In this document: positions 8,753 to 13,260 of the stretch, piece by piece | Position numbering within the stretch: the first letter of the stretch is position 1 | How the letters are laid out: each line of letters opens with the position of its first letter | Origin: Fervidobacterium pennivorans DSM 9078 | GTDB lineage: Bacteria; Thermotogota; Thermotogae; Thermotogales; Fervidobacteriaceae | Direction of reading: 5' to 3' | Assembly: GCF_000235405.2 (NCBI RefSeq) | Contig: NC_017095.1 | Coordinates: forward strand, 62,001 to 126,000 | DNA length: 64,000 bases | Program-made: the position numbers and the translations under genes | Notes under the pieces: generated by a model | Seen by the model: the letters and a program-made list of their open reading frames with translations, nothing else | Database searches by the model: none | Told to the model about the DNA's origin: nothing

Positions 8753-9868
8753 ATGAAAGTGCTAGGCTTGATTTTGGCTGGTGGTAAAAGTGATGCTCTG
8801 GGTAAGCTCGTGTATAAAAGGGCAAGTGCCGCAGTTCCAGTATTTGGAAAATACAGAGCAATAGATTTCACACTAAGTAACATGGTGAATTCCGGGATAT
8901 ACAAAGTAGGCGTTCTAACACAATACAATCCAAGAAGTCTGATGGACCACCTCGGCTCTGGGAAAGAATGGGACCTCGATAGAAAGCACGGGGGACTTTA
9001 CATACTGCAGCCTTACATTGGTATGACTGGTGAATACTGGTACCGAGGGACTGCGGACGCTATCTTTCAAAACACAACAATGCTTCGTAGGGGCGATGAG
9101 GATTACGTCTTAATAGGCTCAGGTGACCATATATACAAAATGCTTTACGACGACTTGTTCAGATACCATTTTGCGAAAAGTGCAGACATTACGTTGCTTG
9201 TTAAAGAACTGGATGACACATACGATATAACCCAGTATGGAACAGTTGTTACGGAATCTGATGGAAGGATTGTAGAAATAAAAGAAAAAGTCCAAAACCC
9301 ACCGACTCGAAAAGCCTTCTTAGGAGTTTACTTTATCAACAAATATCTGCTACTCGAGCTTCTGTATGACACAGTTCCAGCAGGTAAATACGATTTACTT
9401 CTGGATGTTGTTATACCAAATCTTTCGAAACTCCGCGTATACGCGTACGAATTCAAAGGATATTGGAGAAATGTCAAAAAAGGTATCAACGAATATTACA
9501 AGATGAATATGGAAGTTTTAAACAGTCAAGCGCTTCGTGAGGAACTTTTCATCAAATACGGTAAAGTTTACACTAAGCTAAAAGACTATCCACCTGCTAA
9601 ATATACCAATACTGCGAAAGTGAGCAATTCAATAATAGCGGATGGTTGTATAATCTCAGGTAACGTTAAGAATTCTGTATTGTTCAGAGGTGTTGTTGTA
9701 AAAGCAGGTGCAAGAGTTGAAAACTCCATTGTAATGCAGGACACGGTAATTGAAGAAGGTGCAATCGTTAAAAATGCGATAATAGATAAAAACTGTGTAA
9801 TTAGGGCTGAACAGATGCTTGTCGGAGACTTTGAGCCCGTTGTACTCGAAAAGTGGATGGTAGTCTGA
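8753..9868 (+). CDS. glgD: GlgD, regulatory-type ADP-glucose pyrophosphorylase subunit
   Basis: A 371-residue nucleotidyltransferase with an N-terminal Rossmann-like domain and a C-terminal left-handed beta-helix (hexapeptide-like repeats such as [16 protein letters not shown]). It resembles GlgC but the nucleotide loop reads [14 protein letters not shown], lacking the GGxGxRL signature and the following lysine. GlgD subunits of Firmicutes have the same change and act as a poorly active partner of GlgC. The glgC gene follows 79 bases later. It is probably one transcript for glycogen synthesis. The start ATG follows GGGGGTGGTCC. Lack of activity is inferred from the missing residues. Confidence 0.9.
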
Positions 9869-9947
9869 TGTTGTCATTTGTGTGAGTTTTCGCACTTTCG
9901 TGATGTTTGTTTCTCTTTTTTCATGTTTAATCTTGGGGGTGTTTATA

Positions 9948-11195
9948 ATGACAAATGTAGTTGCGCTGATACTTGCTGGTGGACAAGGTACACGATTAGG
10001 TGTATTGACTGAGAAGATTCCCAAACCTGCTGTTCAATTTGGAGGGAAGTACAGGATAATAGACTTCACACTGAGCAACTGTGTTAACTCAGGTATCTAC
10101 AGGGTGGGGGTTCTTGCACAGTACAGACCTCACTTACTAAACAAACATATTGGAATTGGTAAGCCTTGGGACTTAGATAGAAAAGGCGGAGGAGTGACGA
10201 TACTCCAACCTTATTCTACGTTGACGGAGAGTGTTTGGTACAAAGGTACCGCGGATGCTGTTTATCAGAACATAGAATTTGTAGATGAATACAATCCTGA
10301 ATATGTTGTAGTTCTATCAGGTGATCACATATACTCGATGGATTACAGCGAGTTTGTTTATTACCACGTGTCAAAGGGCGCATTGGCGACGATAGCTTGT
10401 ATGGAAGTCCCAATTTCCGAAGCGTATAGGTTTGGTATCATGGTAACCGATATCGATTACAAGATTGTCGACTTCCAAGAAAAGCCAAAACAACCAAAAT
10501 CGAATCTTGCCTCACTTGGTATCTATGTTTTCAACTGGGATTTCATAAAGCAGGTGCTTATCGAAGATGCAAAAGATGAGACAAGTGAGCACGATTTCGG
10601 AAAGAACGTAATTCCAAAGATTTTATCTACAGAAAGGGTTTACGCATTCCCATTTGAAGGTTACTGGCAAGATGTGGGAACAATTATGTCTTACTGGGAG
10701 ACGAATTTAGAACTTGTCAGACCCATTCCGCCATTCAATATACATGACCCGAACTGGAGAATATATACAAGGTCCGAAGAGATGCAACCAGCGTATATAT
10801 CTCCAAGTGGTGAGGTAAGAAATTCAATCATTAGCGAAGGTTGTGAAATATACGGCTTAGTTGAAAACAGTATCATTTCACAAGGTGTAATTATCGGACA
10901 AAACACCGTTGTCAGAAACAGTGTGATAATGACAAAGGTAGAAATTGGTGATAATGTGATAATTGAAGATGCAATTATTGCGGAAAACACAATTATCAAA
11001 AACGGGTGTAAAATAGGATTAGGAGAATACGCTGAAAGCAAATATGATAAAAAGGTATACAATTCACACATAACTGTCATTGGAATGGATTCAATAGTTG
11101 AGGACGATTGTGAGTTTGGTAAAAACGTAGTCATCGGTAACGATAAAGTTATTCCAAAGGGTACCAAGATAGAAAGTGGTGGTTATTTCATGTGA
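9948..11195 (+). CDS. glgC: Glucose-1-phosphate adenylyltransferase
   Basis: Makes ADP-glucose from ATP and glucose 1-phosphate for glycogen synthesis. 415 residues. The intact nucleotide loop [16 protein letters not shown] is followed by [37 protein letters not shown] and [11 protein letters not shown] are further active-site segments; the C-terminal domain is a beta-helix of isoleucine-rich repeats. The frame is open from 9882, but ATG 9948 follows GGGGGTG and matches the family start, so the upstream part, rich in Phe and Val, is not coding. Partner of the GlgD subunit just upstream. Confidence 0.95.
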
Positions 11196-11243: not shown

Positions 11244-12230
11244 GTGGACCTTTACTTCATAAAAGTGAGGGCACGCAGTAAGGGAACAGCGGAAGAAATA
11301 GTTGGGTATTTCTTTGGAAAGACCAATGGAGCACCAGATTTTGACTTTCTGGTAGTTCCTTTTCGTTATTCTGAGATTATAGATAACATTACTTTGGATG
11401 AAGACATTAGAGAATTTAAGGAGAAAATTGAAGAAGCGAAACAAAAAGTAAAGGAATTACCGGGTGTTTACGACGTTACTATAGCATTCCTTGCGTATCT
11501 TAACAACATGATGAATCGCCGTGGGAAGATACCTTTGGGTATAGAATTTTCTACCGCATTAAAAGAAAATGACACCGAGATACTTAAAGTTATCATTGGC
11601 GATTTATTCGAAGAATGGAGCCCGAAGATGGAAATCTTTGTGAAAGCTGAAGGAATGCTTTTAGAAGAATACTCAGCTTACACTTTCCTTTCCATGCAGG
11701 AAGATGTTTCCGATGAAAACGTAACAAAGGCTTACACACGACCTGACGTGGCAGATTTACCGGAGGTCTTCCCCGTTATCGACCCTATCAACGGTGCTCC
11801 GATTATACAATTTGATGTTGGAGACAAAATCCCAGTTGTAATTCTTAATCCTGGCAAATACGAAAAACAAATCCGTGAGAAATTTCCAAATTTTGACAAA
11901 GATAAGCTTTCCATAGAAGCAATACTTTTGAGCAAAGAGCTTATTCGAGTAAAAGGTGGCGATCTTTATCTGATAAAAGTTGAGTTGGACGAGGGATTAG
12001 TAGCAAAATCACTTGTGAGTCCGGCTCTGAAAATTCTTAGTGATGAAACATACTTTGCTAAAAAGAAAAGACAGCGTGAATATGAACCGAAGGAAAAACA
12101 TGAAAAATACCTAAAAACCATCAAAGTTGAAATACCTTCCACAACAGGCACTGAGCTGCTTATCTCGCTCATGACTACTCTTTTAATCACGGGTGCTTTG
12201 CTTATTATCGTCTATCTATTTACTAAGTAG
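11244..12230 (+). CDS. Uncharacterised tail-anchored protein of Thermotogales type
   Basis: I do not recognise a characterised family. The 328-residue protein has a long mixed alpha/beta cytoplasmic part, a charged segment of about 30 residues rich in Lys and Glu near residue 275 (AKKKRQREYEPKEKHEKY-like), and one C-terminal transmembrane helix (about residues 302-325, LLISLMTTLLITGALLIIVYLF). There is no signal peptide, so the topology should be cytoplasmic with a C-terminal anchor. The start is GTG after AAGGAGGAATTACA. It sits between the glycogen genes and ispF with 48-49-base gaps, so it may share their transcript. No catalytic motif was seen. Confidence 0.75.
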   Translation: MDLYFIKVRARSKGTAEEIVGYFFGKTNGAPDFDFLVVPFRYSEIIDNITLDEDIREFKEKIEEAKQKVKELPGVYDVTIAFLAYLNNMMNRRGKIPLGIEFSTALKENDTEILKVIIGDLFEEWSPKMEIFVKAEGMLLEEYSAYTFLSMQEDVSDENVTKAYTRPDVADLPEVFPVIDPINGAPIIQFDVGDKIPVVILNPGKYEKQIREKFPNFDKDKLSIEAILLSKELIRVKGGDLYLIKVELDEGLVAKSLVSPALKILSDETYFAKKKRQREYEPKEKHEKYLKTIKVEIPSTTGTELLISLMTTLLITGALLIIVYLFTK

Positions 12231-12279
12231 TCTTGGACAATACTAACCCTCAAATAAGTTCAAAACCAGAGGTGGTATT

Positions 12280-13260
12280 TTGCAAACGACGGTTGTAAAT
12301 AAAGACAATATCGACAAGGTAGTAGGTTTAATATACGAAGAAAAGAAGGCGTTCTACGATGAACTTTTCGGGGGAAATGCACCTAAATACTTGAAAAAGG
12401 CTTTCGAATCTGATATACCACCTTTTTTAAAGAAGAATTGTATCGTGCTCCAAGATGGAGAGAACGTAAAAGCAGTTCTATTGTATGCAACCAAGGCAGA
12501 ATTTCGTCACGGATACCAAAGGTGGTTTCGTGTACTTGGATTAAAGATAGTACCTGTAGGAGCAAAGATGATTTACATTATAGAAAGGATATTGCTTGAT
12601 TTCTCAACTGATGATTTGTATATCGTATCGTTGGCTGGAGAACATAAAGAACTGCTTTTGTATAGGTTTATCAAATCCAGTAGGTACAAGAAAGTAATAG
12701 TCGATACAATAGAGTCTGACCTATACGAACGTTTCAATTTTACCGAGAAGTCACAGATTCACCCAAAATTAAAGCGCTTTTCCAAATTTTGCGATTACCA
12801 CACATTAACAGGTCTGGGATGGGATACTCATCCACTTGTTCAGGGAAGGAAATTAATACTCGGTGGAGTTCAGATACAATCTCAGCTGGGTCTTCATGGC
12901 CATTCCGATGCGGATGTCCTCTGCCATGCGCTTATCGATAGTCTACTTGGAGTATCTTTGAAAAAAGACATAGGAGTGCTCTTTCCAGAAGATGACGAAA
13001 ACAAAGGACGGAGTAGCTTGGAGATGCTTGAAATAGTTGTTCAAACTGTTAACAAGAGCGGTTTCTTCCCATCATCCGCAGATTGTGTTATAATTTCACC
13101 GATTAAGCTGAAAGATTATCGGGAAAAGATATCGGAAAAGCTCGAAAGTGTTTTAGGTTGCCCGGTTTCGATAAAGTTCAAATCCGGCAACGGAGTGTAC
13201 CCTGAGTCTGAAATGAAGGGAATAACCGCAATATGTGTAACCAATGTTGATAAGATTTGA
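12280..13260 (+). CDS. ispF: GNAT-like domain fused to 2-C-methyl-D-erythritol 2,4-cyclodiphosphate synthase
   Basis: 326 residues in two parts. Residues about 172-326 form a complete IspF: GLGWDTHPL gives the metal-binding Asp and His, HGHSDADVLCHALIDSLLG gives the third metal His, and DIGVLFPEDDENKGRSS and FKSGNGVYPESE complete the site. IspF closes the ring of the MEP pathway intermediate. Residues 1-170 look like a divergent GNAT acetyltransferase: VKAVLLYATKAEF and YIVSLAG strands and a C-terminal LYERFNFTEK, the usual end of the fold. The acetyl-CoA loop (Q/RxxGxG/A) is not visible. The start is TTG after AGAGGTGG. The fusion is open for 981 bases with no break. GNAT is inferred from pattern only. 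Confidence 0.85.
   Translation: MQTTVVNKDNIDKVVGLIYEEKKAFYDELFGGNAPKYLKKAFESDIPPFLKKNCIVLQDGENVKAVLLYATKAEFRHGYQRWFRVLGLKIVPVGAKMIYIIERILLDFSTDDLYIVSLAGEHKELLLYRFIKSSRYKKVIVDTIESDLYERFNFTEKSQIHPKLKRFSKFCDYHTLTGLGWDTHPLVQGRKLILGGVQIQSQLGLHGHSDADVLCHALIDSLLGVSLKKDIGVLFPEDDENKGRSSLEMLEIVVQTVNKSGFFPSSADCVIISPIKLKDYREKISEKLESVLGCPVSIKFKSGNGVYPESEMKGITAICVTNVDKI

Follow-up and report, generated by a model that had tools for sequence, protein, structure and literature searches.

Known IspF fusions and enzyme-attached GNAT domains

The fusion of IspF (MEcDP synthase) that is named in the literature consulted is IspDF (PMC10663253, PMC13001223), and IspF itself has been described as evolutionarily rigid (PMC10663253). 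In IspDF (PDB 1w55 and 8xhu; NF006899), IspF forms the C-terminal half of a two-domain layout similar to the one described here; however, the partner in IspDF is the IspD cytidylyltransferase, whereas the protein described here carries a degenerate GNAT domain and IspD is encoded separately. Our literature search found no published mention of a GNAT-IspF fusion. In E. coli IspF, Glu135 holds the second metal (PMC2151065, PMC3927217); one study of 450 IspFs found only Asp or Glu at this position (PMC2151065), and another gives 81% Glu plus 18% Asp (PMC3927217). Isoprenoid diphosphates bind the central cavity of the E. coli IspF trimer (PMC2151065).

The main CoA-binding element of GNATs is the pyrophosphate-binding P-loop, with the consensus Gln/Arg-x-x-Gly-x-Gly/Ala (PMC4964394); atypical P-loops also occur in active GNATs, e.g., MtAAC(2')-Ic (PMC4964394), and a lost consensus is thus no strict proof of lost CoA binding. 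Two described domains resemble the fused domain, as we interpret it, in being non-catalytic, enzyme-attached, impaired in the P-loop, and regulatory or structural. One is the O-GlcNAcase pseudo-HAT domain, which modulates its enzyme and is unable to bind acetyl-CoA (PMC12494797); the other is the inactive central GNAT domain of Eis (PMC4964394). Both differ from it in that their partner enzymes are unrelated, their position is C-terminal or central rather than N-terminal, and they are eukaryotic and mycobacterial.

The fused gene, its distribution and its neighbourhood

The window analysed here is a 64,000-nucleotide stretch (bases 62001-126000) of the single-contig, 2,166,381-base genome of Fervidobacterium pennivorans DSM 9078, and contains the only IspF of that genome, encoded by one uninterrupted 981-base frame of 326 codons that begins with TTG and ends with TGA (Table 1). 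Stretches similar to the Shine-Dalgarno-like sequence in front of this start (gaggtg or ggtgg) also precede the start in relatives.

Table 1. Features of the fused ispF gene and its product (positions are those of the window)
Feature	Residues	Coordinates	Strand	Basis
Shine-Dalgarno-like GAGGTGG, 5' of TTG start		12269..12275	+	Sequence read directly
Complete fused gene, putative pseudo-GNAT domain plus IspF, TTG start	1-326	12280..13260	+	Frame and family conservation
N-terminal domain, predicted GNAT fold without CoA P-loop	1-170	12280..12789	+	AlphaFold, Foldseek PDB, HHalign
Basic-hydrophobic helical insert between strands 3 and 4	72-108	12493..12603	+	Family alignment, AlphaFold
Beta-4 to alpha-3 junction, P-loop site missing	112-122	12613..12645	+	Joint alignment, HHalign
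IspF (MEcDP synthase) domain	178-326	12811..13257	+	Pfam PF02542, PDB phmmer, Foldseek
Zinc ligands D182 and H184 (E. coli Asp8 and His10)	182, 184	12823..12831	+	Alignment; roles from PMC3927217, PMC2151065
Zinc ligand H216 (E. coli His42)	216	12925..12927	+	Alignment
KFKSGN motif; N304 replaces E. coli Glu135	299-304	13174..13191	+	Alignment; role from PMC2151065, PMC3927217

The same two-part frame was found, free of stops, in 20/20 genomes of Fervidobacteriaceae, a family of heat-loving bacteria, representing five genera, at 48-92% identity. Among 103 Thermotogota genomes, all members of this family have an IspF frame of about 330-360 codons, as compared to about 155-190 codons in most other members of the phylum, where IspF is standalone; long open frames upstream of ispF in L012, L031, L093, and L095 probably represent chance read-through and were rejected as fusions. 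A profile of the N-terminal domain recovered the 20 family members at E below 1e-70 and gave weak matches only elsewhere in the phylum; across 390 genomes from 299 genera, it recovered nothing beyond the same 20 members. Outside Thermotogota, the survey comprised roughly 290 genomes and one contig scan sensitive to close relatives only; a tblastn search of plasmids with the N-terminal domain gave no match. A scan for related loci returned only one relative. As far as tested, the fusion is restricted to one bacterial family. A doubtful exception to standalone IspF outside this family is presented by two frames of 264 and 284 codons in family f11 (L091:2656-3450 and L092:2947-3801), in which extensions of about 115-125 residues precede IspF and possible internal starts exist. 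Family f11 stands beside the fused family in a tree built from IspF only (95/87 support, long branches), and its extensions look GNAT-like by eye; because their scores against GNAT profiles do not exceed those of shuffled sequences, we claim no homology for them.

The first-pass annotation had described one frame joining about 170 residues to IspF, with a partner other than IspD, had proposed a survey for the same fusion, and had named evidence of two separate proteins with an internal start as grounds for refutation. The frame proved exact, and, with regard to the partner, no match to PF01128 was found in the fused protein and IspD has its own gene (G000:C1:646736-647386). That the frame encodes two proteins, or that an internal start has led to an artefact of annotation, is extremely improbable: isolated in-frame start codons do occur upstream of the IspF motif in some relatives, but no in-frame ATG, GTG, or TTG is present in the window from 40 codons upstream to 8 codons downstream of this motif (GLGWDTH), L035 likewise has none within 40 codons, no conserved start near the junction was found among the homologues, no homologue has a Shine-Dalgarno sequence there, and the frame is unbroken throughout the family. 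The lack of an in-frame start near the junction excludes two proteins on sequence grounds. In closely related pairs, and only where dS could be estimated, dN/dS was about 0.07-0.12 for the N-terminal half, near the value for the IspF half; purifying selection acts on both halves, and the N-terminal half is thus maintained as protein. The open frame in all 20 genomes, the low dN/dS, the lack of a shared internal start, and the conserved upstream neighbours together identify the fused frames as orthologues rather than a local accident.

Since the genome encodes no other IspF and has separate genes for IspD, IspG, and Dxr, the fused protein must serve the MEP pathway. The genome also contains two ispG loci outside the window (G000:C1:731397-735000 and 1342329-1346002), each near a dxr homologue, so that part of the pathway appears to be duplicated. 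Upstream of fused ispF, glgD is present in all members, and a gene of the DUF4899 family lies between the two in Fervidobacterium and in genera g2, g3, and g5; in the window, this gene (PF16240, E 2.3e-106; 11244-12230) is directly upstream of fused ispF and encodes a C-terminal hydrophobic segment. Further upstream, positions 8753-11195 appear to hold two adjacent paralogous genes, similar to glucose-1-phosphate adenylyltransferase genes, of 371 and 437 aa. Downstream, frr-uppS-cdsA follows fused ispF in Fervidobacterium and genus g2.

The two halves of the protein

Residues 1-174 matched nothing in Pfam or NCBIfam, and a search of PDB sequences with only the N-terminal domain as query yielded no significant match; the GNAT assignment thus rests on fold and profile-profile comparison. 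AlphaFold modelled the protein, as a monomer, with a mean pLDDT of 89 (88 for the N-terminal domain), and the predicted elements follow the GNAT order (beta, two helices, beta-beta, helical insert, beta4, alpha3, beta5, alpha4, beta). All Foldseek matches in the PDB at E below 0.001 were acetyltransferases or acetyltransferase-like domains, the best being 4m85 (TM 0.71). Among the weak matches of the domain profile elsewhere in the phylum are genuine GNATs that stand alone (L073 and L079, which match Pfam Acetyltransf_1 at E 3.6e-11 and 1.5e-13), and a GNAT of the same type is encoded in the F. pennivorans genome itself (G000:C1:1657044-1657583, i.e., L116). HHalign matched the fused domain to the profile of standalone Thermotogota GNATs (L105 was left out of the underlying alignment) with a probability of 97.6% over 160 columns, as compared to 0.6% for a reversed profile and 0.2% for IspF as negative controls. 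The model and the profile comparison thus agree that the N-terminal domain is, as predicted, a GNAT fold.

The standalone GNATs (L116; L079/L103) share with the fused domain the fold, the N-terminal motif LIY..(F/Y)(F/Y)..LFG, and the helical insert between beta3 and beta4; however, they are unfused and keep both the RGxGxG P-loop and the ENxNxxAIxLY motif B. Where they have VDKxYRGxGxG, about ten residues are absent from the 18 fused sequences aligned, in which motif B (ENTNxxAIxLY) is also short of three to five residues; none of the 18 has the P-loop consensus of active GNATs between beta4 and alpha3. Because the P-loop and part of motif B are missing relative to the standalone GNATs, the N-terminal domain is, judged from these alignments, most aptly called a pseudo-GNAT, kept by purifying selection; this description argues against both catalysis and a classic CoA sensor. 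The earlier description of this region as GNAT-like and devoid of a visible acetyl-CoA loop therefore agrees with our results, the loop having been deleted. The most conserved stretch of the domain is the insert, in which K72, F75, R76, Y79, W82, L86, G87, G94, and K96 are invariant, and it has the lowest AlphaFold confidence, a combination that would fit an interface.

The C-terminal half shares with usual IspFs (PF02542, TIGR00151; PDB 5iwx, 3f0f, and 1gx1) the fold, the D/H/H zinc ligands, the HSDAD motif, and the length. The Pfam YgbB model (PF02542) covers residues 177-323 at E 1.7e-39, from profile position 3 to 154 of 155, and Foldseek aligned this half to IspF structures with a TMt of about 0.9 and an rmsd of 1.1-1.6. 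The first-pass annotation had called this IspF complete, which holds for its length; the NCBIfam ispF model (TIGR00151) gave 111.6 bits, narrowly under its cut-off of 116.45, because the domain is divergent. D182, H184, and H216 are invariant in 21 sequences, as is the HSD motif, and the catalytic zinc site is intact. As compared to usual IspFs, the fused protein has, besides the 170-residue N-terminal domain, a one-residue deletion before the CDP-binding loop, Asn304 in place of Glu135, and the substitutions W181, T183, Y307, and P308. These four residues are among those marking the fused clade and correspond, in the numbering of PMC2151065, to positions in the lining or at the edge of the central cavity of the trimer. 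Loss of the Arg142/Glu144 pair was rejected as a mark of this clade, as several unfused Thermotogota also lack the pair.

All fused members have Asn304 where an acidic second-metal ligand (Glu/Asp135) would be expected. Asn occupies this position in 53/53 sequences from six Thermotogota families (KxK[ST]xN; loci L016-L031 and L081-L098), and Glu in 14/14 from three others. Because the enzymes concerned are the sole IspFs of genomes with the MEP pathway, we read Asn304 as a lineage variant of Thermotogota that is neither tied to the fusion nor a loss of function. The KSGN motif, being common to most Thermotogota, was rejected as a mark of a dead fused IspF.

Possible roles of the N-terminal domain

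We consider it probable that the fused protein is the sole MEcDP synthase of its host and a single polypeptide in which an N-terminal, non-catalytic pseudo-GNAT module is carried on the trimer. The IspF half would form the usual trimer and make MEcDP. The pseudo-GNAT would neither bind nor transfer acetyl groups and would sit on the trimer, where it may aid assembly or thermal stability; alternatively, it may modulate the enzyme through protein contacts or through some ligand, in a role that we liken to that of the O-GlcNAcase pseudo-HAT domain. Its most likely function would accordingly be a structural or an allosteric one, exerted on the IspF trimer. Asn304 counts against this explanation, the second-metal site of the fused IspF being putative.

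Other roles for the N-terminal domain have to be weighed against this one. The suggestion of the first-pass annotation that the domain senses CoA or acyl-CoA, which would place the ligand in the old GNAT cleft and let it tune IspF, could draw on the beta4/beta5 arrangement retained in the model, on the linkage to a metabolic enzyme, and on the conserved K72, R76, K89, and K96. However, the pyrophosphate loop is deleted, the conserved basic residues sit in the insert, away from the former P-loop, and O-GlcNAcase pseudo-HAT domains whose P-loop is altered fail to bind acetyl-CoA (PMC12494797); with the P-loop gone and nothing else pointing to CoA, a tie between isoprenoid flux and acyl-CoA status found no support, and we regard such a sensor as quite improbable. 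If the domain were instead an acetyltransferase that is active through an atypical cofactor loop, the enzyme would be bifunctional. Such a domain has a precedent in those active GNATs whose P-loops depart from the consensus (PMC4964394), but it would have to function without the loop and motif-B residues that all aligned members lack, and no Pfam GNAT model recognises the domain in the window; this reading is very improbable.

The insert itself suggests a further reading, i.e., that the module binds a ligand other than CoA via helix 72-108 and thereby controls flux or brings the enzyme close to the membrane; the ligand could be an isoprenoid diphosphate, a lipid, or another protein, for example IspD, IspE, or UppS. 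The high conservation and low model confidence of the insert are what one would expect of an interface, the same clade has changes in residues that line the IspF cavity, and fused ispF is closely followed by uppS and cdsA in Fervidobacterium and genus g2. This linkage to uppS and cdsA was not seen in the other genera, however, and a comparable insert in standalone GNATs of the same type implies that the insert was inherited; the ligand is putative, and we consider this role unlikely.

A bolder form of the favoured reading, in which a non-catalytic module is carried on the trimer, concerns its origin. We put forward only tentatively, as a doubtful possibility, that a single recruitment, in the ancestor of Fervidobacteriaceae and perhaps also of f11, made the pseudo-GNAT an allosteric or assembly subunit of IspF, and that it replaced, together with the remodelled cavity, the usual control point for isoprenoid diphosphates. 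If true, the recruited pseudo-GNAT and the remodelled cavity would represent a regulatory architecture of the MEP pathway that has not been described before. With Asn at the second-metal position in most Thermotogota, the view that this position always needs an acidic residue would have to be revised. Only a few pseudo-GNAT modules are known, and the fusion contributes one from bacterial metabolism; because it occurs throughout the family, Fervidobacteriaceae offer a natural setting in which to ask whether the trimer is a route by which IspF is regulated.
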